A DNA stretch of 64,000 nucleotides, taken from positions 1-64,000 of the forward strand of contig CAJHZI010000310.1 of assembly GCA_905160935.1 (NCBI GenBank), written 5' to 3'. The notes under the pieces were generated by a model. That model did not search any database. It saw only the letters and a list, made by a program, of their open reading frames with translations, and was not told where the DNA came from. This stretch comes from Enchytraeus crypticus (Eukaryota; Annelida; Clitellata; Enchytraeida; Enchytraeidae). Positions 10,798-61,326 of this stretch are shown here, in pieces (within the stretch, counting starts at the first letter, position 1; each line of letters opens with the position of its first letter). Made by a program: the position numbers and the translations under genes.

Positions 10798-11013
10798 TTA
10801 CGGATGCGTATCATCCATTAAAGCTCCATTAGCTTCTTTTTCCTTCTTAGGGTTATAGATGGCCTTTAGTGGGATTTTCCCTTCTGTGCTTTCCATGAAC
10901 GGTTTTACCCACGGTTGGATTTCCCCGTCAGCCCATATGCAGTAGACTATTGCACCGAAGAAATAGATTCCAGCTGATAGATAGAATACGTGTCTCCATT
11001 CCTCCTGAGTGCC
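10798..11013 (-). CDS. SLC17A5-like: Gene A exon 10 (C-terminus, TAA stop)
   Basis: Starts in phase 0 after GATTGATTGATCTCAG. Encodes [12 protein letters not shown], helix 12 and a charged tail ending NGALMDDTHP (residues 471-541). The acceptor is immediately preceded by a (GATT)n tract. Confidence 0.93.
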   Translation of the reverse strand, partial: GTQEEWRHVFYLSAGIYFFGAIVYCIWADGEIQPWVKPFMESTEGKIPLKAIYNPKKEKEANGALMDDTHP

Positions 11014-14000
11014 CTGAGATCAATCAATCAATCAATCAATCAATCTGTCAATATATCACCCAATAAATCAGTCATCCAGTCAATGAATCAATAAATGTAT
11101 CAATCAATCAATCAATCACTCAATCAATCTGTCTATCAATCAATCAATCAATCAATCTGTCAATCAATAAATCAATCAATCAAACAGTCAATCTATCTTA
11201 TATTCAATCAAAGAATCACTCAATGAATCAAAGAACCAATTAATGAATCAATCAAGAGATAAAACTAATGTAACAAAAGGCGCAGCATAGCCTCAATAAA
11301 ACTAAACTAAATTAAATGAATTTAAATATAAAATACGTGTGGTCTTTAGTTTATTACTTATTTTCTAAGTCTAATATATGTCGTCTTGTATTTTACAAAA
11401 AATAGCACAGAGATAAACCAATAAACAGCTTGAGAAAAACAAAACAAAAATATAAATAAACATTAAAATAAACACAAATACTATTTATTATATTATTACT
11501 ATTTATATTATAATAAATATATTAAATAATATATTAAATATTATTGTATTAAATAATATTTATATTTTAATAAATATAGACTGAATCCTTACATTGGGAG
11601 TCAAAAGTCCCACGGCGTAGGGAGCGAAGACACCGGACAGCGTCCCGATGCTGTTTGCTATTCCAAACAGGACGGCAGCGAATGGCGGCGCGATGTCGGC
11701 ATGGTTGACCATAACCCCAGGGAACTGAAAGCCGCTGAACGCCAGGGCGATAGATATGACCGCCACAGCGGCGTAGGGTCTGGCGCAGGTGATGTAGCCA
11801 GTGGCGATGAGAGCTATGCCAGGTGGAAAACTTGCTGTACAAGTACACAAGTATAGCTAATATTAATAATAATAATATTAATCAATCAATCAATCCATAA
11901 GAATTTAACGTCTGGTTCCTACGCCATAAGGCAATGTCAGGGACGTCAAAGGATCAAAGGATTAACGTCCGTTTCCTCATCCAGGGATGATTTCAGGGAC
12001 GTTGGTTAAAGCTAAAGACCGTGGATCAGTATGTGCGGGGTTCCAATCCTGCGCTCGCCCGTCACTGACATCACTTTCGAGTGAGGAAACTGACATTAAC
12101 ATTAGCACTACCAGTTTTTACGTCCTGAGGTACATAACAGCTGCTGTATAACGTGAGATGCTTGAAGCAAGCTTGATGCAATCTTTGTAACGGTAGCTCG
12201 AGTGTGTCAAGTCGTTTAGAAAAGGATGAGCTTCAGACAACAACAGTACACACCCTGCAATCTAATGGCAGATGTTATCTTAGCAGAGCTCTTAGCGATC
12301 AGCAACGTAACTGTTTTCAAAGTTATAAGAACTAAAACACCACAATAAAGTAGCCGATAATTGTTTAAACACAAATCACATATAAATAGTGACCATATAC
12401 AACAAGGGCATTGGGTAGCCGTTAAACCAACACATACAATAAACTGTGACTCAAATCTCCAATAAATTCCTTCAGACACAGCTTGCCTCTCTCTTTCTCT
12501 CTCTCTCTCTCTCTTTATCTCTCTCTCTCTCTCTTTCTATCTAGGGTTCTGCTAAAGATCCCAGGCACATATTCTTTCACGCTGTCTGCTTTCAAGCTCA
12601 TGCATACGTTAATCATCGAACATTTAAATCCCTTCACTAAAAGCTCAGTTAATCTGGCTGGACAGGAAAACTGATCACAGGAAATACAGTCCTAAGGTAG
12701 TTTTCCGTTGCGTTTATTGTGTCCTTATTGCGTTTAAAACAAGCAAACGCCTGGTCTATTTATCTCTGTTCCGATTGTGACACAGTTACATTAGTGCTTC
12801 AGTGTTATTTGAAATAAATATAGTTCTCTCAAGTACACACACATTATAGTGAAATGATCAACTATGTTGATAGCCATCACTTTTAATACTACATGTTTAA
12901 ACCGTTAGGCAATTTAGTCCATTTTCCATGCAACCAGTTCAGTGAATGTCCGAGATTTTACTCTGATCAGCGCGGCTGGGATTCGAACCCACGAGGGTTC
13001 AATTCACCTCAAGATGTGTCACTTAAAGCTTCATGACGTTACTCCTACGCTATTAAGACTTTCAAATTATATACCTGAGCACTGAACTGACTCAGACAAA
13101 TCAGGGATAAGGGTTTTCGCTGCTCACCTAAACAAATCATCAGCTTTCTGACGTTCTTTGTTTGAAAGCCCTTCACTCTCATGTAGTCAGCTGCGAAGCC
13201 TCCAATGTTGATACAGGCCCAGAACAGAACATAGGGGATGGCCGATAGACCACCGTTCTACAAACAATCAATCAATCAATCAATCATTCAATCAATCATC
13301 GAACAATCAATCAATCAATCAGTCAATCAATTATCGAACAATCAATCAATCAATCAGTCAATCAACCATCGAACAATCAATCAATCAATCAGTCAATCAA
13401 TCATCGAACAATCAATCAATCAATCAGTCAATCAATCATCGAACAATCAATCAATCAATCAATCATCGAACAGTCAATCAATCAAACAGTCAATCAATCA
13501 TCGAACAATCAATCAATCAGTGAATCAATCATCGAACAATCAATCAATCAATCAGTCAATCAATCATCGAACAGTCAATCAATCAAACAGTCAATTAATC
13601 ATCGAACAATCAATCAATCAAACAGTCACTCATTCAGTCAAACATCCAAGGATGATGTCAGAGACGTAAATCTCTATTCTGATATTGAAATCTCGCAGAT
13701 AATCCGTAACTATGCAGTTTGTTACTTCAACAAACACATTAGTCGTCTTTTCAGATTTTTGTCCTTAAATTAGTCAGAATCATCATATCAACAAATAATA
13801 AGTAAACAATTGTGGGTTGTGTGGGTTCAAATCTTGCGCACACCCGTCACTGATGTCGCTTTCGAGACATGAAGCTGACGTTAACATCAGCTTGACAGCT
13901 TTATAAAATATCTTATAAACATTTTTACAACTAATTCAAAACCTAAATGCCTAAAATAAAACAAAATTTAATTCAGTAAAACCTAATTCAACACTAGAGT

Positions 14001-15410
14001 ACCACATACTCTACCTAGACTCTACACTCACAGACTCTACATGTCGGCTGGAGTCAGTGGCGAAGTCGGTAAGACACTCAACCGCTGATCAATTTGTGCA
14101 GGGTTGAAATCCTGGGCTCGACCGTCACTGACATCGCTTTCGGGTGAGGAAACTGACGCTAACATTCTAACTACGTGCACGTTCCTATTGTTTGTATAAT
14201 CTGTGATGTGATGAACAAATAAACGATACTAAACGAAAAAAAGCTTTACCAGCTTTTAGATATCACAAGAGAGAGGGTCACTCACGGCTTTGATGTCAAA
14301 CTTGAGTATCTCGCTCATGTAGGTGGGTATATTTGTGAGGAGAGTGAACGTTCCCCACAGAACACAGAACTGTGCAACGATGATAGCGAGGAACGGCACT
14401 GATTTAAAGAACTCAAGCCACGGAGTCTTTAGTGGCTGTGATAATAAAACAATAGAAAACATACCAATAGATAACATACCAATAGATAACAAACCAATAG
14501 ATAACATACCAATAGATAACAAACCAATAGATAACAAACCAATAGATAACAAACCAATAGATAACAAACCAATAGATAACAGGTCGTTAGCTAACAGGTC
14601 GTTAGACAACAAGCCGTTAGATAACAAACCAATAGATAACAAACCAATAGATAAAAAACCAATAGATAACAAACCAATAGGTAGCAGGTCGTTAGATAAT
14701 AGGTCATTAGATAACAAGTCATTGGATAACAAACCGTTAGGTAACAAGTCGTTAGATAACAAGCCATTAGATACCAAGTCGTTAGATAACAAGCCATTAG
14801 ATAAAAAGTCGTTAGATAACAAATCGTTAGATAACAAGACATTAGATAAGAAACCAATAGATAACAAATCGTTAGATAACAAGACATTAGATAAGAAACC
14901 AATAGATAACAAGTTATTAGAAAACAAGCAAGTTGATAGCAAGTCATTAAAAATCAAGTCGTTAGATAACAAATCAGTATACAATGAATTAATAGATAAC
15001 AAAATATTAAAAGTAAACACGCATTATAGTGAACTGATCATCTATGTCGATATCCATCACTTTTAATACCACATGTTTAAACCTTTAGGCAATTTAGACC
15101 ATATTCCATGTAAACAGTCCAGTGAATGTCCGAGATTTACTCTCAGATCAGCGCGGCTGGGATTCGAACCAACGAGAGTTCAATTCACCTCAGGATCTGT
15201 CATTTAAAACTTCATGATGCTACCCCTACGCTATTGAGACATTCTAAAAACGACAGATGACACCACAGTCAGACCTTGTCTGTTTTCTTCGCTCCTATGC
15301 TCGACTCAATGTATTGTCTCTCCTCAGCGCTAACACGAGGATGTTGTGAGGGCGAGTCATACACCACTAGCATCCAACATATCAGTATCACTGCTCCAAT
15401 AGTGCCTGTC

Positions 15411-15444
<34 letters not shown>

Positions 15445-16492
15445 GTGAGTCATACACCACTAGCATCTAACATATCAGTATCACTGCTCCAATAGTGCCT
15501 GTCACAATCAATCAATCAATCAATCAGTCAATCAATCGATCAATCGATCAATCAATCAATCATTGGTGAGTCATACACCACTAGCATCTAACATATCAGT
15601 ATCACTGCTCCAATAGTGCCTGTCACAATCAATCAATCAATCAATCAGTCAATCAATCGATCAATCGATCAATCAATCAATCATTGGTGAGTCATACACT
15701 ACTAGCTTCCAACATATCAGTATCACTGCTCCAATAGTGCCTGTCACAATTAATCAATCAATCAGTCAATCAATTAATCAATCTACTAATCAATCAGTCA
15801 ATATAACTGCCTTTATAATGCCCAATAGTTCAGAATTAATCAAAATATCACACATTATATTTATAGATTTACAAAGTATAGGCCTACTACTCAATTTAAA
15901 ACTGCGGATGGTATAAAATATTACAAATATTTATTGTTGATGTTTCACAAAAAATAATCACAAGGGAATTCCCTACCACAAGATCTTCTATCTTATAATT
16001 GTATTAGCACTTTCCCGGGCACGCTAAACCCATCTCCTTCCGCCAAAAGTCAATATTCTGATCCTCTTGCCTCGAATTTTGGACTTGCACTGTTTTGATC
16101 TTGCTTTCTGTTGTGGTATCTGTGTACTCAGTCGTCATCGCGTGGTGCTTCAGCGCCTATTTGTGTAGAGTCTGCAAGAGACGTCCCTGACATTGCATTA
16201 TGGCGAGGAACCGGGCGTTAAATTCTTACTGATTGATTGAATAAACTAACCAACAAGATTTTCATATAAAAAACTAGATGACGCCTCTTGCGTGACAAAT
16301 GTCTACTGAAGTAGTTTTTCATTGTATTCATTGAGTTAGATTGCTACAACGGAAGACTTTGATATTGGTTGATAAGCTTAACGAATCTGACCGGCAGGGA
16401 TATTCAGATAAACTCCACACTGAACGATAGAGAGAGGAAGTAAAGCTTGGAGGTCTAACTGATAACTTATCGAACACATAGAAGATATAAAT

Positions 16493-16547
<55 letters not shown>

Positions 16548-16599
16548 GAGAGACAACTTACCAAACACAAAGAAGATAGACTGATAACTTACCAAACAC

Positions 16600-16652
<53 letters not shown>

Positions 16653-16725
16653 GAGAGAGAAAAAAAAATTAACAAACACTTAGAAGATAGAATGATAAAT
16701 TACCGAACACATAGAAGATAGAAAT

Positions 16726-16776
<51 letters not shown>

Positions 16777-19700
16777 TAACTTACCGAAAACATAGAAGAT
16801 AGAGCTCCAGCCACCGTCAAAACCATAGTCACAGAGCAGAGCGGATATGGGCAGAGTTAAAACATTGCCTATCTGAGCTCCTACAACGTAAGTTATATCA
16901 TAAAATGTATTATTATCTGATTAATTGTTAATTAATTAACTAAGAGTTACTGTATCAAGACTTTACTAACAGTTAAATAAAAAGAGTTGATTAACTTTAA
17001 ATAGCATCTGATATATGACGTTCTAATTGATTTATTATGTATTATTAATATTATTTATTATGTGTCATAAATATTATTTATTATGTATCATAATTATGAT
17101 TTATTATGTATCATAAATATTATTTATTATGTATCATAAATATTATTTATTATGTATTATAATTATGATTTATTATGTATCATAAATATGATTTATTATG
17201 TATCATAATGGTTGCGTTATGGAGTTATAGCTATCTGACATTTGCAATATTTCAGTCCAAAATAAAGTCTATATTATCATGCAAGTACTAAAATAATAGT
17301 CATCATCGTCATCATCTTCTCTTCAATCTCAGTTTAACTAGGGTCGGGTTGAAAAAATCTCGTATCAATCTCTGGAGTAATAACAATAATTAGCAAGAAA
17401 GTCAGAATTACATCTTATGTTTAAGTTTCTTATTTTTAACTACGATATACAGTACATTAATTACTGTAAAGCTACGCATAATGCTACAGAATTACTACGC
17501 ATAATGCTACAGAATTACTACGGATCAAAAAAATATGTATTAGCCAAATATTCTAAACACCAATTCTTTCCCAAACAGAGAGAATAATTGATTAAGAGTT
17601 TGATTGATTGATTGTTTGCTTGATTTGAATAATTGATTGACTGATTGGTTGATTTAAAGAATTGATTGATTGATTGATTGATTGACTAATAGAATGATTT
17701 AAACCTGCATATGTGAAGCCGATGAGAATGCTTCGCTCCATTGGAGGAGCCCACTTAGACCACAGGGCCTGCATGACTGGAAACATGGCGCCCTGTCCAA
17801 TCAATCAATCAATCAATCAGTCAGTCTATCAAACAAACAATCTATCTATCTACCTGTCATCAATAAATTCCATTATCAATTATCCACTTAGTCAAAGAAT
17901 ACAATCAATGTCTATGAATTAATTTCCATCAGAATTCCAGTCACATTACAGCCTCTAACCATCTTTCACTTACATACACTAGCTACACATACAATATATA
18001 GACAGATGTATGAAACAAGAAATACTAAACAATAAACTTGAAATACAATAAATACTAAAGTCTGAAATTTCAATCCGAATGAAATAAATAGAGGATTCAA
18101 CACAAAGCTTGATATAAATCATCTCAAACCCCAGGAGGAGCCACAGACCTGCCCCAATTGATTGATTGATTGATTGATTAGCTTTTTTTAACCCCATGAG
18201 GAGCCACATACCTGCCCCAATTGATTGATCGATTGATTGGCTTTTTTTAACCCCATGAGGAGCCACAGACCTGCCCCAATTGATTGATTGATTGATTGGC
18301 TTTTTTTAACCCCATGAGGAGCCACAGACCTGCCCCAATTGATTGATTGATTGATTAGCTTTTTTTTAACCCCAGGAGGAGCTACAGACCTGACCGAGGC
18401 CGTTGATGACCCTGAGAACGATGAGCATGTAGGGGCTGAGCCTGGCGCCCACACTCGACAAGAGGGAGGAGGCCACTGCAGCGAACATGAACACCCCCAT
18501 CACCCTCTTACCACCGTATCTCTGCGCTAGCCATCCTGCTGGAATCTGCGTCACTACGTAGCCCCAGAAAAATGAACTCAGCACCAGACTCTGAGTTTCC
18601 TTGTTCCATGCGAACTCTCCTTCTTTACGCGAGCTCTTTAGTTAATCAACAATCAATCAATCGATCAATCAATCAATCAATCAATATATCAAAATATTTT
18701 TGTTTTGTCTGGTATTTACAATGCATCAACGAATCCAATTTCAGTGACGTTACCTGTCGCACTTACAACTGAGCTATTTATCATATATTGTTACACTGCA
18801 CTGAATCTCATTAGTATTGTGAAATACAAGTATAAAATATTTTATTTTGTCCGGTATTTACAACGTAACAACAATTCCAAATGCAATGAGGTTACCTGAA
18901 ACACACTGAGCAATTGAGACAGTTGGTAACACTGATTTGTATCTCATAAGTACTCAACATATGCATTGCACCGCCGCTGTAAAGTATTATATTGTTAAAC
19001 AAGCATCGGTGCTTCCTGATCCAGTGTGCCGTTATGTTACACAATTGAATAATTCATTACAATGTCACAACATATCAGTACAAGCATTGTTACACTCATT
19101 GAATTGAATTATTAGGCTGCACATTGCATATCTTTGATTGGATCCAACCATAAATCAGCAGTAACAAGATGCAATTAGATATATTACATTAGTAGTAGAG
19201 AATTTCTCTGACTCAAGTGTCACCTGAGTACTAATTACATTACACATACAATCAGTTCTGATAACTTTCGCTACTTCAACAAATTAGATAATTGATATTA
19301 ACAAATACGAGTAAGAAAAACAACCGTACCAAGCTCGCACAATACAACCACTCTAAATAAATATATATATACATTGTAAAAACGAAATAAAGGTGTCAAT
19401 AGCGAGTGAAACAATCGCTTATATTTCACAGCGTTTTTAACAGTGTAATATTTATCAGAGACTTCAGAAAAGGTTATCCTATTTATTATTAAATAAATAG
19501 GATAACATTTTCTTAAATCTCTGCTAATTTTCATTCTGCGCTCAAAGACTAAACGATCGCATTGCGGAAGAGAACTAAGCAAATTCTGAAGAAGAAAAGG
19601 GAAAAGGACCTCAGAAGCCAAACTCTACTCGAGCCAAAGGTTACAATAGCTTAGCAGAACGGCTAAACCTTTAAAATATCGTTGAAAAGGTCATCAAATC

Positions 19701-20720
19701 CGTTGAGACCGCTTAGTTAGATAAATATCTAAAGTAATTTGTCACACAGCGCTAAACAGACGATAGCATTCAGCGTTATCTATTGCTCTCTCTAGTTACC
19801 TTTGCTTTCAAACGCCACGTTAAAGGTTTATGGCTTCTGGAGTGGTTTGCCATTGCTTTGATCAATCAACGCTTATTTTGTCTAATGTCGATTACACACT
19901 AATATTTCTAGACATAGTCATGTCAGCAGCAGCATTTATTTATAAGTAACCTCTTACAAAAATCATGTGATGGGTTTATTTTAGTGTTTCCTTTCACTAC
20001 AATCAAGCCTCTTATAAAAAGCTAAAAAGCAAAGGTTAACTACAGTTTTCTCACTCGAAAGCGATGTCAGTGACGGGAGAACCCTGGATTTGAATCACGC
20101 ATATACAGATCCGCGGTCGAGTAACACACCAGCCTCTACACCAGTCTCTACACCAGTCTATACATCAGGTTCTACACCAGCCTCTACACCAGTCTATGCA
20201 CCAGCCTCTACACCAGCCTCTACACCAGCCTCTACACCAGTCTATACACCAGCCTCTACACCAGTCTACACACCAGTTAACATCTAGTAACTAATGTCAC
20301 GAGAGCAATGAAGAAGACAACAGAGTTACCACGCACCTCTCCTGTAGAATTGCCCGTCACTCTGTTAGCATAGCAGTTTTCATCAGCCACTGCAGACTTC
20401 TTGGTGACGTTTAAGCCTTTAGCAAGCTGCGCCTCCTCTATCATGATCTGAGTGGCTGTGCGGTTAACCATGCAGACCATGGCTACGCTCATGTTCACTC
20501 TGAGTCCATACAGGTTGACGAACACAAAGAACCCAACAATGGCCAGAGCCCATCGACACGTGCATATAGCAGGTACTGCGTCAGCATATACCAAATACCA
20601 AATAAGAAACGTCCCTGACTTTGCGCTATGGCGAGGAACCGGACGTTAAATTCTTATTGATTGATTGATAAGTAAATCCTCTCTCTCTCTCTCTATCTAT
20701 CTCTGTATCTCTCTGTCTCG

Positions 20721-51606: not shown

Positions 51607-51837
51607 TTACAATGTCCTGACATCTTTCATTGATCCGTTCATTAATGATGAATTAACTAGAGAACCATTCGCTTTAGCACTAGGATCGTGTGTAACTATT
51701 TCAGGATCAGGATTTTCCATAAAGGGTTTTACCCATGTCTGGATTTCACCGTCGCCAAAAATAGTATAGACTATTGCACCGAAGAAATAGATTCCTGCTG
51801 ATAGATAGAACACGTGCCTCCATTCCTCCTGAGTGCC
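51607..51837 (-). CDS. SLC17A5-like: Gene B exon 10 (C-terminus, TAA stop)
   Basis: Acceptor GATTGATCACAG next to (GATT)n, as in gene A. Encodes [40 protein letters not shown] and a tail unlike gene A's ([17 protein letters not shown]). Confidence 0.94.
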   Translation of the reverse strand, partial: GTQEEWRHVFYLSAGIYFFGAIVYTIFGDGEIQTWVKPFMENPDPEIVTHDPSAKANGSLVNSSLMNGSMKDVRTL

Positions 51838-51842
51838 CTGTG

Positions 51843-51884
<42 letters not shown>

Positions 51885-52506
51885 TAATGTGTCAATCAGT
51901 AAATCAATAAAATAGTCAAGCTATCAATCAATCAGTCTATCAATCAATCACTTTTACGGTCGGTCGTTCATTCGGTCAGTCAGTTAATAGTCAGTCAGTC
52001 ATTTTATTGAAATAAAACTCATTAAACATGGTTCGTCAACTGACCGAGATGAAACTAATATTTATAAACATTATAAACAAAACGATATAACAATATCTAG
52101 ATAAAGACTATAAATAGCTATAAGTCAGCATACCAGTAAACAGCACTTACATTTGGAGTTAGAAGTCCCACAGTAATGGCTGCGAACACTCCAGCAAGAG
52201 TCCCTGTTGTGTTGCCTATCCCAAATAGAACTGGAGCGAAAGGTGGAGCAATATCTGCTACATTTACGTTGATAGTGGCAAATTGGAAAGAGCTGAAAGC
52301 CATGGAGATGGAAAGAACTGCCACGGCGAGGTAGGGCGTCTCACAGGTGATAAAACCAGTCACGATTAGACATATTCCAGGTGGAAAACTACCTGAGTGC
52401 AAATATATAGTCAAACAATCGTATTGTTAATCAATATTTGAATTTTAAGCAGAATTAAGCTGAGAAAAATGAGGAATGTTTTGAGTGATTCAGTTGATGG
52501 AGTCTC

Positions 52507-52542
<36 letters not shown>

Positions 52543-55500
52543 TTCGATTCGCTAGAGGCGCTCGAGGTGGTTAGTTTGTTTACGCACACCTGTGTTTTTC
52601 TTTAGCACTTTTTATCGTTTTTCTTCACTTCTGCTAATTTTTTCACTTTGTCTTTTGTCATACTGCTTTTATATATATCCCTGTACGCCCAGGCCCTTTT
52701 ATTTCTATTCTTTTGTGCGCATTCGGCTTATTTTACCTTTTATTAAATCTGCATTATGCTTTAGTTTTCACCTGCATTGGACTATTGGACTGCAGCTATT
52801 TGCAGTAGTGTTCCAGTTTAATTCTTTTCTCTCTCGCTTGCTATGCCGTGTTTGCCACATGCCTGCCAGACAGACTTGGCCACTGTCTCAGACTGCCAAC
52901 AAGAAAACTGGCATCTGTTCGGTGTGCCTAGCTCAACGTCAGCTTCATTCGGGAGACGGAAAGGTCCATCTTCATGGCCCATTGGATAATCGGTGCCCGG
53001 GTTCCAACCAACCTCCCTTGCAGATCTCCGCACAGGCGGCAGCTTCGCAACCAGGTCTTGCAGTTTCTGATATAAGGAATAGGATCAGGAATCGGAGCTG
53101 CGACTCTGGTTCGGCTAGACAGAGTTCTCCTCCCACTGCTGCTCCCAATTCTGCTAACTTATCTCCCAATTCATTTTCCTCTCAGCCGCTCATTCTTGAA
53201 CATCCCTGCTTATCGCGACCAACAATAAAACACATTCCCAAATCAGCCAGACCTGCTTGTTCAGCAGCCTTGATTGATGCCTTCCGTAAGATCGAAAGCG
53301 ATCCCTCAGTTTTATCATACTGGTCAGATTTGTTGCTTTTCGCATCTTCGGTTTTGCAAGTCCCTGCTCGCACAGGTAAAAGGCATAATCTAAGCTCTTT
53401 AATTAAGAAAAGGTTGGAGGGCCTAGGTACTAGTGCTCCCACTGAGCCGGTCGTAGAAAGAATTAAAAGAGCTCATCATTCTCATGACTCCCGTGCCTCA
53501 GCAGTCAGGTCCAAAATGGAAGATGGAAATGTTTCGGCAGCTGTGCGCATCCTCTGTTCAGACGAAAGCCCAGCGCAATGCACCATAAACACTTTCAATA
53601 TCCTGAAGGCCAAGCACCCACCCACAGCTAGTAGCAGTATAATGGCACCCCTTCCGGACTCAATGGCGACTCCGCCCATTCAAGTCTCAGAGCAGGATGT
53701 TGTCAAAGCTGTACGTAGCTTTCCAGCAGGCTCAGCAGGTGGTCCTGATGGCCTTCGCCCTCAGCATCTTCTGGAGCTTGTGACTTGTAGAGAGTCGGCT
53801 GGGACATTTTTGACCGCTTTGACTTCTTTCGTGAATCTCCTTCTTAGAGGTGCTTGCCCCCCTGAGGTCCAACCGGTGCTGTTTGGTGGTAAACTCTTCG
53901 CACTCAATAAGAAATCTGGCGGCATTCGCCCCATTGCAGTGGGTTACACTTGGCGTCGTTTAGCCGCTAAATGCGCAAATCGCTATGCAGTATCTGCTCT
54001 CAGCGAATACTTGAGCCCAATTCAACTTGGAGCTGGTATTCCAGGTGGCTGTGAGGCAGCTGTTCACGCTACTCGCCGTTTCGCTGAGTCAATGCCAGCT
54101 GATCACTTCGTGGTAAAGCTAGACTTCTGTAATGCTTTTAATTGCTTGAGTAGATCACGAATGCTCAGCGAAATACATCACAGGATACCAGAGCTGTATA
54201 GTTTCTGCCATCTAGCTTACTCAAGCCCTTCGTGGTTGAAGTTCGGAGACTGGTGCATTGAGTCACAGGAAGGAGTCCAACAAGGGGATCCCTTAGGGCC
54301 CATGCTGTTTTGCCTGACTATTCACCCTCTCCTTACTTCTCTCTCTAGCGATCTCACGGTGGGATACCTAGATGACATTACTCTAGGTGGTTGCGAGTCG
54401 TCGATTGCAAATGATGTACAGACTATCATCGACAGAGGCCAAGAATTTGGGCTTCAGTTGAATCGTACCAAGTGCGAAGTCATTTCATCAGTTTGCAAAT
54501 CTCCGGGCAACTCAGTTTTGTCATCATTTGTGCCAATGTGCCTATCCCATAGTTCTCTACTCGGCGCGCCACTCTCTGGAGAAGAAGCTACTACCACCGC
54601 TTTATCCAGTCGCCTTGAAGACCTCAAACGTACAGCATCACGCTTGAAGTCGCTAGCCGCTCATGATGCTTTAACAATCCTTCGCTTTTCTTTAAGTGCA
54701 CCTAAACTTATGCACGTTCTGCGCTCTAGTCCGAGCTTCTCTAATCCGCGGCTTTTAGACTACGACGAGGCTCTTAGGCAATGCTTATGCGCCGTTATCA
54801 ACGCAGATTTGTCTGTTTTGCAGTGGCAGCAAGCCAGTCTACCGGTGAGCATGGGTGGTCTTGGAATTCGTCTTGTTTCCCATATCGCGCCTTCAGCCTT
54901 TTTGGCATCAGCGATGGGAACGAGGCAGTTGCAAGACGCCATCCTTCATAAGTGCTCCCTTTCTGCCGATAGTTCCATTGACGTTGCGTTGTCAGTTTGG
55001 TCCAAAAGCCTCACCTCCAGTGCTCCACCTTCTACCTCAGTCAGTAGCCAGAAATCATGGGACCGTCCTATAGTGGATCGGATTTATAACAGTCTGTTAG
55101 AATCCCAGTCCAATGCAGTAGACAGAGCACGACTCCTAGCTGTATCAACTAAAAGAAGCAGCGACTGGCTTCACGCTCTCCCTGTTGCTTCTTGTGGGCT
55201 ATTTTTAGACAATGAGGCGATTCGAGTAGCTGTTAGTTTCCGTTTAGGGGCGAAAACTTGCGAGCCTCACATGTGCCCCTGCGGTCATGAAGTCGACGCT
55301 TTAGGTCTCCACGGCCTCTCCTGCAAACGAAGCTCAGTAGAATGTCTCGCCATCACAATTTAAATGACTAATATGGCGAGCACTTTCGAGAGCAGGCATC
55401 CCTTCCTCTAAGGAGCCAAGTGGGTTTGTCCAGATCAGACGGCAAGCGTCCGGACGGCATGACTTTAGTGCCCTGGTGCAACGGTAAATGTGCCGTTTGG

Positions 55501-57182
55501 GACGTCACGGTCATTGACACTATGGCAAACTCCTACCTGAATACGACTTCGTCACAGCCGGTGGAGCTGCTGTTCATGCCGCCTCTAGGAAGTTTGGATA
55601 AATACCGTGATCTGTCCTTAGGATATGAAGTTGTTCCGGTGGCTATTGAAACCATGGGCCCGATGAATCCCGAAGGAGTTGACTTTATTAATGGCATAGG
55701 CAGACTTATTGCAGAGCAAACCGGCGATAAGCGAGAGACATCTTTTCTTTGGCAAAGGCTTTCCATGACTTTGCAAAGATTTAATGCAGTCTGCTTCAAC
55801 AATTCTTTTAAGCCGATTGATGACCTCGAGTAGCCGGGCGGCGATTCAGCAGTATTGCTTGAATCGTTTTTATCAAACCCCAGGTTCTTTACACCGGGGT
55901 AAATAAAAAAAAAAAAAAAAATCATAATAATAATAATAATAATAACAATAATAATAATAATAATAAAGGTGTAACGTCCATTTCCTCATACAAGGATGAT
56001 GTCAGGAACGTCATAACAAATAAATGAATATTTTGAGTAATTTAGTTCATCAGTTGATGGAGTCTCATACACTAATCGCATAATTAAGTAAAGTGTAATG
56101 CGAGATAGAGTTGGATATAAATACAATATAATGTAATTTTCTAATGCCTACAGTGTAAGAAATGTCGCTAGTTTGCTAGTCAACAACCCTTCCTTATGGA
56201 GCCAGTGGCGACGTCGGTAAGATATTCGCCCGCGGATCAGTATCTCTTAGTGCACTGCCTACTGGCAGGTCCATGGCATAAAACGCCTCCACTCTTCTAT
56301 GTCTTCCGCTTTCCTCTTCATGTCCACATTTTAGTGGGTCTTTAAAACATATAACATACCCAATCTCGGTCTGCCCCTGCCTCTTTTTTCCTTCCATTCT
56401 ATCTTCTATGACTTCTTTTAACTTGATGGATTTTTCCTTTTGGATGAGCCCTATCCAACTCTTCTTCCTATTTCGGATAAGTGAAATTTGGGTTCAAATC
56501 CTGTGCTCGCCCATCACTAACATCGCTTTCGGGTGAGAAAAATGACGTTAACATTACTTTACTTTATACTTTTTTCTGCTGTGTCCGATAGCGTTACCGC
56601 CCTATAATCACAGAAAGCGATGAGGCACTTGACAGTATAGTTCAGTGGAAGGAATAGTCAACATTAAGACCACTTTCTCTTGTGGTCTCAGTGTACTCAG
56701 TCGTCATCGTGTGGTGCTTTGGCGCCTGTTTGTGCAGAGTCTGCAAGAGACGTCCCTGACAATGCCTTATGGAGAGGAACCGGACTTTAAATTCGTATTG
56801 ATTGATTGATAGATTGATGAAAAGAGACAGCAGAGTTACTCACCCACACACATCATCATCTTCCTCACATTCTTTGTTTGGAAGCCTTTCACCCTCAGGT
56901 AGTCAGCCAGGAAAGACGCGATGAAGAGAAATACCACGCCCACTAGGTAGGGCACTGCCGATAGGAAGCCGTTCTGTAATAAACAAATTATTACATAATT
57001 ATTATTATTAAACATTTAATAATAATAATAAATATCTAAAGAAAGATGTCAGGACATTGTGAATTAACATAACTGTATTGATATCTATCACTTGTAGTAC
57101 CGCACGTTTAAACCGTTTGGGAATTTAGTCCATAATTAATAATGGTAATGATAATGATGATGATGATGATGATGATGATGAC

Positions 57183-57217
<35 letters not shown>

Positions 57218-57392
57218 CGATGTACTCACGGCTTTGATGTTGAACTTGAGTATCTCGCTCATGTAGGTGGGTATGTTGGTGAGTAGGGTGTAGGCCCCCC
57301 ACAGCACGCTGAATTGAGCCACTACGAGGGCCAGGAAGGGCACTGACGTGAAGATCTTCACCCAGGGAGTCCTCAGTGGCTGTCATACAAGA

Positions 57393-57469
<77 letters not shown>

Positions 57470-57499
57470 AATATACATATATATATATATCATATATAT

Positions 57500-57551
<52 letters not shown>

Positions 57552-57683
57552 ATTATATATATATATATATATATATTATATTCTATATATATATATATAT
57601 ATACAGTATATATATACTGAATTTATATATAATTTATATATATCCAGTATATATATATATAGATATAATATAAATATATATAT

Positions 57684-57738
<55 letters not shown>

Positions 57739-58537
57739 ATATACAGACTGGAGCAAAAAATAGTAATCCCCTAGCGAAATCTCAATAACTTCAACGAAAC
57801 TCACAAATATTTGTACAAAAGTTTTGGAGCTTCTAGGGGAGGAATTTCTGCATGTATCCTGCAAATATGACGAAAATCTATGTAGCAATAACAAAATTAC
57901 AGCGTTTCTATGAAAGAAGTGAAAAAATCAATTTTAACAATGATTTTTTATCAAAAGTCTTAATAACTTCGACAAAAATTAAAATAGTTTTATAAAATTT
58001 TCGAAGCTTCTAAAGGAGGAATTTCTGCATATATCCTGAATATTTGGTGAAAATATATTCTGAATTAACGAAAATACAGCATTTCTCCGGAAAAAGTGCT
58101 AAAATCAATTTTAACAAGGTTCATTTTAACAAAAGTACCGACAATTTTCTTCAAACTTTAGGAATAATTGTAAGAGAAGAAAGACTTTAAGCATCTTTTA
58201 TTGGAGCAGCTAACAAGGTAGTATAGCCTTATACTCCACCACTTAAGTTAGCACCCCTTTTCAGGGTCGCTACTTTCTTTAAAAGGAACGACTGACATTT
58301 AAAAAAGCCTTGTTGAAACTGATTTTGCAATTTTTTCGTAGAAATGCTGTAATTTCGAAAAATACTGAAAATATTTTCACCATATTTGCAGGATATATGC
58401 AGAAATTCATCCCCTGGAAGCTCCGAAAATTTCGTAAAGATATTTTGAGTTTTCTTAAGGTTATTGAGATTTCGCTAAGGGATTATTTTTTTTGCCCCAG
58501 TCTGTATATATATAGACTGGGGCAAATATGCATATAC

Positions 58538-58632
<95 letters not shown>

Positions 58633-59541
58633 AGACGATATAGCTTTACTAGCAAACAACAGTTTGCTAGTAAAAACAGCACCCAGGGTTCCTCAGTGGC
58701 TGTGATAAAAGAGACAGTGGTAGAGAGCTAATGTTAGCGTCAGTTTCCTCACTCGAAGGCGATGTCAGTGACTGGCGAGTCCAGGATTTGAATCCACGTA
58801 TGTACTGATCCACGGTCGAATATCTTACAGACATCGCGACTGCTCCAGCCAGTGGAGATGTCTGCATGATATTCGACCGCGGCAACATAGAGTCGTAAGT
58901 TTATACATGCGTTTAGTTTATAAATACACTATAGGCTACTGTCTATACACTATGGTTTATACACTATAGTGTACATGTATTGTGTATACACTATAGTGTA
59001 TACACTACAAATAAGATTTCTTTGTACTATAGTGTATACACTATACACTATAGTGTATATACTACAGTGTATACACTATAGTGTATAAACTATAGTGTAT
59101 ACACTATAGTGTATACACTATACACTATGGTATACACTATAGTGTATAGACTATAGTGTATAGACTATAGTGTACACACTATAGTGTATACACTATAGTG
59201 TATAGTGTATACACTATAGTGTATAGTGTATACACTACAGTGTATAGTGTATACACTATAGTGTATAGTGTATACACTATAGTGTATAGTGTATACACTA
59301 TAGTGTATAATGTATACACTATAGTGTATAGTGTATACACTACAGTGTATAGTGTATACACTATACACTGTAGTGTATACACTATACACTATACACCATA
59401 CACTCTTCACTATGCACTGTAGTGTATACACTATTAACCATAATGTATACACTATAGTGTATAGTGTATACATTCTATATGTGATACACATACAGTGTAT
59501 ATCACATATAATATAAAATATTATATATATATATATATACA

Positions 59542-59598
<57 letters not shown>

Positions 59599-59773
59599 CT
59601 ATATGTTATATACACTATATTTGATATACATTGCCTGGTGCCAGTGGCGATGTTGATAAGTTTTTGTATGCAGGGTTCAAATCTTGGGCTCACCCGTCAT
59701 TGACATCGCTTTCGAGTGATGAAACTGTCGTTAACATTAGGTGTTCCAGCTTTATATATATATATATATATAT

Positions 59774-59838
<65 letters not shown>

Positions 59839-61286
59839 ATTACTCGCCACTGATTGCCACTATATATCAATACATAAAATGAAGCTAAGGCTAAGTTTAA
59901 CGTCAGTTTTCTGCTCGATATCATGTCAGTGACGTGGAGAGCACTATATTTGAACTCCGCACCTACAGATAGACTTTCTAACAACAGGTCAACAAGCCAC
60001 AGACTCTGCTCTGAGCACATACACTGTACAAGGGACATATTAACTGATGTCTTTTAGAAAATTATCCGCTTCTCATTCAGCATCCATGCCTTTCAGGCTG
60101 ACAAGTTTAACTGTCAGTGAGGTAAAGATGTCAGGGACGTCCTTTACATCGTTGTTAAGATGATGTGATGATGGTGATGTCAGAGACGTCCCTTACATCG
60201 TCGTAGTTGACGCTACCTCATAACTCTACAATGCTGTAGCTGTGTAAAAGGGCAGAGCCTGAAGAGATGGCAAACCTTGTTTGAGGTCTTGGCGCCTATG
60301 CTGGTGGTAATGTATCGTCTCTCCTCGTCGCTGATTCGCGGGTGTTTGGCGGGAGAATCGTAGACTATAAATAGAAAACTAACGAGAGCGGCGGCTCCCA
60401 ATATTCCTAAAATAGAACACAAGAAAGTGTCAGATTTCTGTCGAATTCTATGTTAAATCAATCAATCATTCAATCAATCAATATCAATACGAATTTAACG
60501 TCCGGTTCCTCGTCATAAGGCAATGTCAGAGACGTCTATTGCAAATTAGAGTTAATTAATTTACAATTAGTGAATAATGTGAAGTCAATGATGGTTTAAC
60601 GTCCGATCCCTTACACGAGGGAGATGTTAGGGACGTTGTCTGAACCAAAGTCACGAGTTATAAGAAGCAACTGAGCAGGATCTGATGAATACACAGGAAA
60701 ACCCCATCAGTACCGTACAGTTTCAAAGCGTTAAACTATATTAAAGAATATGTTGGACCACGACTTTTCTGATGTGATATATGATTAATCTTTGGTGAGC
60801 TCATATGTGATCATACCCTCAGAATTTTGAGTAGGATTTTTGTTTTGCAGTAGTGGTGAGATAATTTGAGAGAGAGTCAAAGAGTCGGATAAATGAAGAG
60901 TCCAGTTAATTGAAATTGAATTCGGAAATTCGTTAAAAATGTAAAGTAAAAGCGCATTATAGTGAATAATCAACTATGTTGATATCTATCACTTTTAAAA
61001 CCACATGTTTAATCCGTTAGGCAATTTAGACCATGTTCCGTATAACCAGTCCAGTGAATGTCCGAGATTTTACTCTCAGATCAGCGCGACCCGGATTCGA
61101 AACCACGAGGGTTCAATTCACCTCAGGGTCTGTCATTTAAAACTTCAAGACGTTACCCCTACGCTATTTAGACTTTCTATTTGTTAACTACTGCAGTGCC
61201 ACAAGCTGATGGATTGTTGCTCTCAAGTGAGAGTGACAGCAGAGAATTATAGATGCGACATTTTACAAAACATTAAAGCCACAAAC

Positions 61287-61326
<40 letters not shown>

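Follow-up and report, generated by a model that had tools for sequence, protein, structure and literature searches.

The intron between exons 5 and 6 of a sialin-like gene of Enchytraeus crypticus contains three copies of the acceptor edge of exon 6. This array is probably a real feature of a kind that has already been described, namely the tandem repeats across exon-intron boundaries known as 'mirages', and the phylum is probably new for them. We consider it likely that a tandem duplication across the exon-intron edge produced a mirage-type minisatellite, which was left within the intron and whose copies are most likely inert. All positions refer to the window, by which we mean the whole stretch of 64,000 nucleotides that was analysed, and the exon numbers are those of a preliminary description of the same DNA.

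Two sialin-like genes in the window

The array belongs to the first of two paralogous genes.

10798..20561, minus strand: gene A, sialin-like (SLC17), exons 2-10 found, unbroken open reading frame
51607..63084, minus strand: gene B, paralogous sialin-like gene, exons 3-10 found

Gene A matched chains named Sialin (8dwi, 8u3d) with E-values of about 3e-112 over query residues 2-469 of 504, and this match over most of its length places it in the sialin/SLC17 family; it also matched MFS_1. The first organism-named match was that of Capitella (56%, sixth-best), followed by that of Ridgeia (54%), among the best 120 of 653 homologues. A tree was computed from 25 rows, comprising gene A, gene B and 23 homologues, from which the fetched homologue P0016, with a private stretch near the exon 5-6 junction, had been left out beforehand. 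In this tree, which was rooted at the midpoint for drawing only, genes A and B were sisters with a support of 100/96 inside a 16-row group with a support of 91/91. The only organism-named members of this group were Ridgeia, Capitella and Dimorphilus, and Owenia was placed outside it together with Lingula; we take Ridgeia, Capitella, Dimorphilus and Owenia to be annelids. The protein is without an insertion at the exon 5-6 junction in all 25 rows, genes A and B included, and in Dimorphilus four residues are missing upstream of this junction.

The intron between exons 8 and 9 of gene B holds a reverse-transcriptase ORF (935 aa) and a second ORF (153 aa) at 52556-55833 on the plus strand, antisense to the gene. 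The relatives of the former are 46-73% identical to it (among the best 120 of 1022), and the element is probably of the non-LTR type. A search of the window against Rfam gave no match at the gathering score.

Copies of the exon 6 acceptor edge in gene A

The junction GTGACAG|GCACTATT occurs four times on the minus strand, with first exon bases at 15740, 15619, 15498 and 15405, and an exact search matched GTGACAGGCACTATT at the same four first-exon-base positions. The features of this region are as follows.

15275..15405, minus strand: exon 6 of gene A (the real exon), first base 15405, open in frame, donor AAG|GTCTGA
15414..15441, minus strand: pure (GATT)7, stopping 8 nt short of exon 6
15444..15498, minus strand: decoy copy 3 of the exon 6 edge, with TAG, 55 nt in length; acceptor GTGACAG before 15498
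15505..15562, minus strand: (GATT)n tract of unit 3 (TRF)
15565..15619, minus strand: decoy copy 2 of the exon 6 edge, with TAG; identical to unit 3 over 121 nt
15626..15683, minus strand: (GATT)n tract of unit 2 (TRF)
15686..15740, minus strand: decoy copy 1 of the exon 6 edge, still with TGG; two changes of its own
15747..15802, minus strand: degenerate (GATT)n tract of unit 1 (TRF)

The spacings between the four sites are 121, 121 and 93, and TRF reported a 121-bp array at 15412-15802 and a 93-bp array at 15354-15534. The exact search and TRF thus bear out the preliminary description, which had listed four junctions of (GATT)n, GTGACAG and exon 6 at spacings of 93, 121 and 121. The last unit is 28 bases shorter than the others, which is the length of seven GATT units. 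The copies follow exon bases 1-55, diverge from base 56 onwards and continue from that base as AATGATTGATT. An exon edge has been copied, as had been proposed, but the length of exon in each copy is nearer to 55 than to the 'about 60' bases first given. Over these 55 bases, copy 1 has three mismatches to exon 6, and copies 2 and 3 have two each. A G-to-A change at exon base 31 turns TGG into TAG in the copies at 15619 and 15498, in agreement with the earlier observation that a Trp codon is replaced in the two copies nearest to exon 6; copy 1 has kept TGG.

The tandem unit, composed of the tract, GTGACAG and 55 exon bases, hence crosses the exon-intron boundary, and its three copies are located in the intron directly upstream of the authentic exon 6 edge. 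Moreover, the inner units are homogenised, with units 2 and 3 being identical at 121 of 121 bases, and the outer unit 1 has diverged, matching each of them at 108 of 121. Since TAG is common to copies 2 and 3, the change from TGG most simply predates their duplication. The starting state would have been a (GATT)n tract immediately upstream of exon 6 in gene A. Through slippage or unequal exchange within it, the tract may then have been duplicated along with GTGACAG and exon bases 1-55, and a later duplication of one 121-bp unit, after the change from TGG to TAG, would have given rise to copies 2 and 3.

Further exon edge copies in genes A and B

Exon edge copies were sought systematically in 15 introns (8 in gene A and 7 in gene B) with 30 edges, by searching each intron for the adjoining 30 exon bases and comparing the score with those of 100 shuffles. 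Four edges beat all 100 shuffles. The exon-6 acceptor of gene A reached a score of 60 in its own intron, against a maximum of 25 in 100 dinucleotide shuffles, and the other three were the exon-5 donor of gene A (33 versus 26), the exon-7 acceptor of gene B (29 versus 23) and the exon-9 acceptor of gene B (24 versus 23). The last of these was dropped, being a 12-base match off the junction and within the span of the retrotransposon ORF. Beyond what the preliminary description contained, there are thus five exon-5 donor copies, which share their intron with the exon 6 array, four donors in intron 3-4 of gene A, and the exon-7 case in gene B.

16785..16880, minus strand: exon 5 of gene A, donor TCG|GTAAGT
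16704..16725, minus strand: decoy exon-5 donor edge 1, TCG|GTAATT; its joining to the real acceptor would add 81 nt, in frame and stop-free
16673..16694, minus strand: decoy exon-5 donor edge 2, GT lost (TTG|TTAATT)
16593..16614, minus strand: decoy exon-5 donor edge 3, TTG|GTAAGT
16562..16583, minus strand: decoy exon-5 donor edge 4, TTG|GTAAGT
16471..16492, minus strand: decoy exon-5 donor edge 5, GT changed to AT
18127..18392, minus strand: array of 59-bp units with (AATC)n in intron 3-4 of gene A, containing the real exon-3 donor (18390) and decoy donors at 18330, 18271, 18212 and 18149
58680..58724, minus strand: lone diverged copy of the exon-7 acceptor edge of gene B; the resemblance extends to both sides of the junction, and 58699 corresponds to the first exon base

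The exon-5 donor copies (16704, 16673, 16593, 16562 and 16471) are degraded, and GT is kept in 3 of the 5. The decoy donors in intron 3-4 read CAG|GTCTGT in three cases and CAG|GTATGT in one. These latter copies were invisible to the exon-only test (score 10, with 100 of 100 shuffles as high) because they carry few exon bases, and their support is the tandem array itself. For exon 6 of gene B, the acceptor of which is pyrimidine-rich, no edge copy stood out in the intron (score 16, with 24 of 100 shuffles as high and the edge set two bases off). The earlier view of gene B as single-copy therefore holds for exon 6, but one old copy of an exon-7 edge is present in this gene. The exon 6-7 intron of gene B also includes a segment of about 0.8 kb at 57740-58520, with the old exon-7 edge copy on one side and the real exon 7 on the other. 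Inverted copies around CCAGTCTGTATATATA were seen by eye at both ends of this segment, which resembles an inserted inverted-repeat element.

The donor copies also bear on the order of the changes. All five copies of the exon-5 donor have GTG like gene B, against GTT in the gene A exon, and all four copies of the exon-3 donor have GTGGC like gene B, against GTAGC in gene A. The decoys thus retain the base of the paralogue, and the real edges of gene A have therefore probably changed since the copying.

In gene A, GATT, TC and AATC microsatellites are located within the copied units or next to them. In gene B, AT repeats adjoin both the exon-7 edge copy and the real exon 7. The presence of a microsatellite inside or bordering each case supports the idea of slippage. 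Indeed, the original suggestion that slippage or unequal exchange captured a coding edge fits the 28-base difference, the identity of units 2 and 3, and the microsatellites at the three further cases; the mechanism itself is one that we infer. A general pull of tandem arrays towards splice edges was considered and rejected, as such arrays were not clearly enriched there (at 7 donors and 7 acceptors out of 15 each, versus 4.2 expected, P 0.08). Arrays at edges were only slightly commoner than those in intron interiors, and therefore chance and repeat density may suffice to explain them.

An assembly artefact, by which the extra units would be false either wholly or in copy number, could produce two units that are identical over 121 bases, and one report mentions an aberrantly assembled mirage in the amphioxus draft (PMC3087553). 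However, copy 1 departs from the other units at 13 positions out of 121, and the last unit falls short of them by 28 bases. Moreover, the other edge copies in both genes are mutually diverged, which is not expected from an assembly error. We consider such an artefact improbable.

Predicted consequences of the decoys for splicing

Splice sites were scored with a position matrix built from the window's own 15 donors and 15 acceptors, from which the exon-6 acceptor was left out for the scoring of acceptors. The four exon-6 acceptor sites scored 9.0, 9.4, 9.4 and 9.4 with this matrix, which is small, includes several acceptors that adjoin (GATT)n, and gives scores below 0 to the accepted acceptors of gene A exon 5 and gene B exon 9. 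Since these scores are nearly equal, the acceptor sequence alone offers no choice of site. In contrast, the donor of exon 6 scored 8.5 with all 15 donors in the matrix, or 7.1 when it was itself excluded; between the decoys, the highest donor score was 5.2. The notion of four near-identical acceptors is therefore correct as far as the acceptor sequence is concerned, but an open choice for the spliceosome does not follow, as only the real exon has a strong donor. According to the exon-definition model, which is well established, edges without an exon behind them should be disfavoured. The real exon 6 would then win as the sole complete exon, with a good donor about 130 bases downstream of its acceptor.

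Each of the three decoy acceptors, if spliced to the real donor, brings in a stop no more than 22 codons past the decoy junction. This stop is the TAG in copies 2 and 3, and a TGA in the GATT tract for copy 1. Indeed, pure (GATT)n contains TGA in whichever frame it is read, and (AATC)n and (TC)n are stop-free in every frame. TAG thus adds nothing that is needed, because (GATT)n already stops every frame, and the weight that had been placed on it was unnecessary: copy 1, without TAG, stops in (GATT)n anyway. Transcripts that used a decoy acceptor would encounter an early stop and would then be degraded. With regard to the donors, all four exon-3 decoys run into one common TAA, and the exon-5 decoys at 16593 and 16562 lead to an early stop when combined with the real acceptor. 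The product of the decoy donor at 16704 is 81 bases longer, in frame and stop-free, and would therefore escape degradation.

It is conceivable that the decoys act as a poison switch, in which the use of decoy acceptors yields stop-containing, degraded mRNA and thereby tunes the output of gene A. The decoy acceptors are equal in strength to the real one, they are transcribed before it, and 3 of 3 reach a stop. However, such stops come free with any (GATT)n tract, and TAG needs no selection. Furthermore, the identity of copies 2 and 3 suggests that they are too young for visible constraint, the decoy donors in the same intron are decaying (GT lost in 2 of 5), and no exon 6 edge copy was found in gene B. 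A function of this type appears quite unlikely to us. Instead, analogy with the amphioxus mirages, together with the small position matrix, suggests that the exon 6 edge copies are most likely inert and that they probably leave the normal message of gene A intact.

Another repeat borders the acceptor of exon 7 of gene A. A 15-bp minisatellite of more than 30 units at 14440-14972, whose sense strand is open in the exon 7 reading frame, reaches to within a few bases of this acceptor, and retention of its last part would add an in-frame repeat.

(GATT)n at acceptors and (AATC)n at donors

Pure (GATT)n tracts of at least 16 bases are located in the last 60 bases of 6 of the 15 introns, compared to about 1.0 expected on the basis of interior windows; a count of six was not attained in any of 20,000 simulations. 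The first 60 bases of these introns contain no such tract (0 of 15). Conversely, (AATC)n is present in the first 60 bases of 3 of the 15 introns (0.7 expected, P 0.0007) and in the last 60 bases of none. All 19 intronic pure GATT tracts of at least 16 bases are centred in the last 28% of their intron; many of them are units of one array, introns 9-10 of genes A and B may share ancestry, and just two related genes are concerned, so that the independent count is about six intron positions. Four pure AATC tracts are centred in the first 37% of two introns. In 5 of the 15 introns (3-4, 5-6, 7-8 and 9-10 of gene A, and 9-10 of gene B), the last GATT tract stops 7, 8, 9, 8 and 7 bases before the exon, respectively, and in two further tract-bearing introns it stops 30 and 45 bases from the exon. 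Besides the tract before exon 6, these are the following.

17800..17819, minus strand: (GATT)n, stopping 7 nt short of gene A exon 4
13267..13286, minus strand: (GATT)n, stopping 9 nt short of gene A exon 8
11022..11045, minus strand: (GATT)n, stopping 8 nt short of gene A exon 10
51845..51868, minus strand: (GATT)n, stopping 7 nt short of gene B exon 10

Each GATT unit contains the branch-point-like motif yUnAy, and there is no AG in the tract. Between positions -15 and -45, yUnAy was counted 3-6 times at the five acceptors directly after a tract, 6 times and once where the tract is 30 and 45 bases away, and 0-3 times at the eight acceptors without a tract. We tentatively suggest, as a possibility that is itself rather doubtful, that (GATT)n is an exapted, slippage-proof 3' splice-site module that seeds exon edge copies, and that (AATC)n at donors pairs with it. 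The units would recreate yUnAy, bring in no AG and stop 7-9 bases before the exon, so that the unit number could change without loss of the acceptor. Such tolerance might let tracts grow at acceptors and repeatedly seed exon edge copies, and (AATC)n at some donors could pair with them and bring intron ends or exon flanks together.

The predicted (AATC)n-(GATT)n pairing beat 200 of 200 mononucleotide shuffles for the ends of intron 3-4 of gene A and for the flanks of exon 4, where it amounts to -37.9 kcal/mol. For the flanks of exon 3 it was borderline (1 of 200 shuffles), and for the ends of intron 3-4 of gene B it was unremarkable (28 of 200). Pairing of intron ends was also considered for introns 5-6 and 4-5 of gene A and rejected, as it was no stronger than in shuffles (169 and 197 of 200 at least as stable). 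The (AATC)n after exons 3 and 4 is complementary to the (GATT)n before them (18330-18389, 17793-17852 and 17645-17704). Complementary repeats that flank an exon can favour circular RNA or exon skipping.

The view that all (GATT)n tracts are SINE tails was dismissed, since reading of the sequence revealed a repeat body upstream in only 2 of 7 introns (7-8 and 8-9 of gene A). A short repeat, with variants of GACGTCCCTGACATTGCCTTATG...GGACGTTAAATTC beside (GATT)n in both orientations, was seen by eye at 11880-11990, 13600-13672, 16180-16240, 60460-60530 and 20630-20690, and by eye it resembles a SINE with a GATT tail. A second repeat near 15170 carries a tRNA B-box-like GGTTCGAATCC, likewise by eye.

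Comparison with known systems and significance

The original paper on the amphioxus Adh repeats is reportedly that of Canestro et al. 2002. According to later reports, tandem repeats spanning exon-intron boundaries occur at 5' or 3' edges in the amphioxus globin and Adh3 genes and are called 'mirages'; their unit number varies, their inner units are homogenised, and the mechanism behind them is called unclear (PMC3087553). The hosts named there are Adh3, the globins BflGb6 and BflGb9, TnC and PGBD5 (PMC3087553, PMC3902484), the PGBD5 mirage having been added, and TnC cited, by PMC3902484. RT-PCR suggested no interference with splicing, with use of cryptic sites called possible (PMC3087553), and splicing is reported to be undisturbed for the Adh, TnC and globin mirages (PMC3087553, PMC3902484). 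A role in intron gain has been proposed (PMC3087553), and mirages are discussed as a possibly general cephalochordate phenomenon and as raw material for new introns (PMC3087553, PMC3902484). The exon 6 edge array of gene A has the same structure as the amphioxus mirages so described. The differences are that the host is an annelid and not a lancelet, that four edges in two neighbouring genes are involved, and that a microsatellite is present in or beside each case. An open-access literature search, beyond which most subscription journals lie, found no report of mirages outside lancelets.

Other systems share single features with gene A. In the potato RdRp gene, a duplication crossing an intron-exon edge created a spliced intron, with the donor in the copied exon piece (PMC4974935). 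The duplication in gene A likewise crosses an acceptor edge and part of an exon, but its copies are without a good donor (5.2 at most). It is highly improbable that the copied edge is on its way to becoming a mini-exon or a new acceptor, as in potato RdRp or as proposed for the amphioxus globins: the structure fits the proposed starting point and the decoy donor at 16704 is in frame for 81 bases, but the best donor inside the copied exon fragment reaches that same low score and every copy has stops. In the polyubiquitin gene UBC, tandem dual-specific AG|GT sites in coding repeats are used (PMC10809524). Intron 3-4 of gene A similarly repeats CAG|GTCTGT in tandem; unlike those in UBC, its sites are intronic, beside (AATC)n, and putative donors. 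Lastly, complementary AC/GT tracts at intron ends have been described in fish by Lin et al. (via PMC7404189). Intron 3-4 of gene A resembles these introns in having (AATC)n at the 5' end and (GATT)n at the 3' end, which are predicted to pair, but the repeat unit is a different one and pairing was predicted in only 1 of the 4 introns tested.

Tandem copies of exon edges are a rarely reported kind of repeat, and the parts of the present findings that merit further attention are the link to microsatellites and the GATT acceptors. Identical acceptors with and without a full exon behind them offer a natural experiment on how the spliceosome distinguishes a genuine exon from an exact copy of its edge. 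The occurrence of several mirages in two neighbouring annelid genes, each of them with a microsatellite, suggests a general route by which simple repeats may pull exon edges into tandem arrays.
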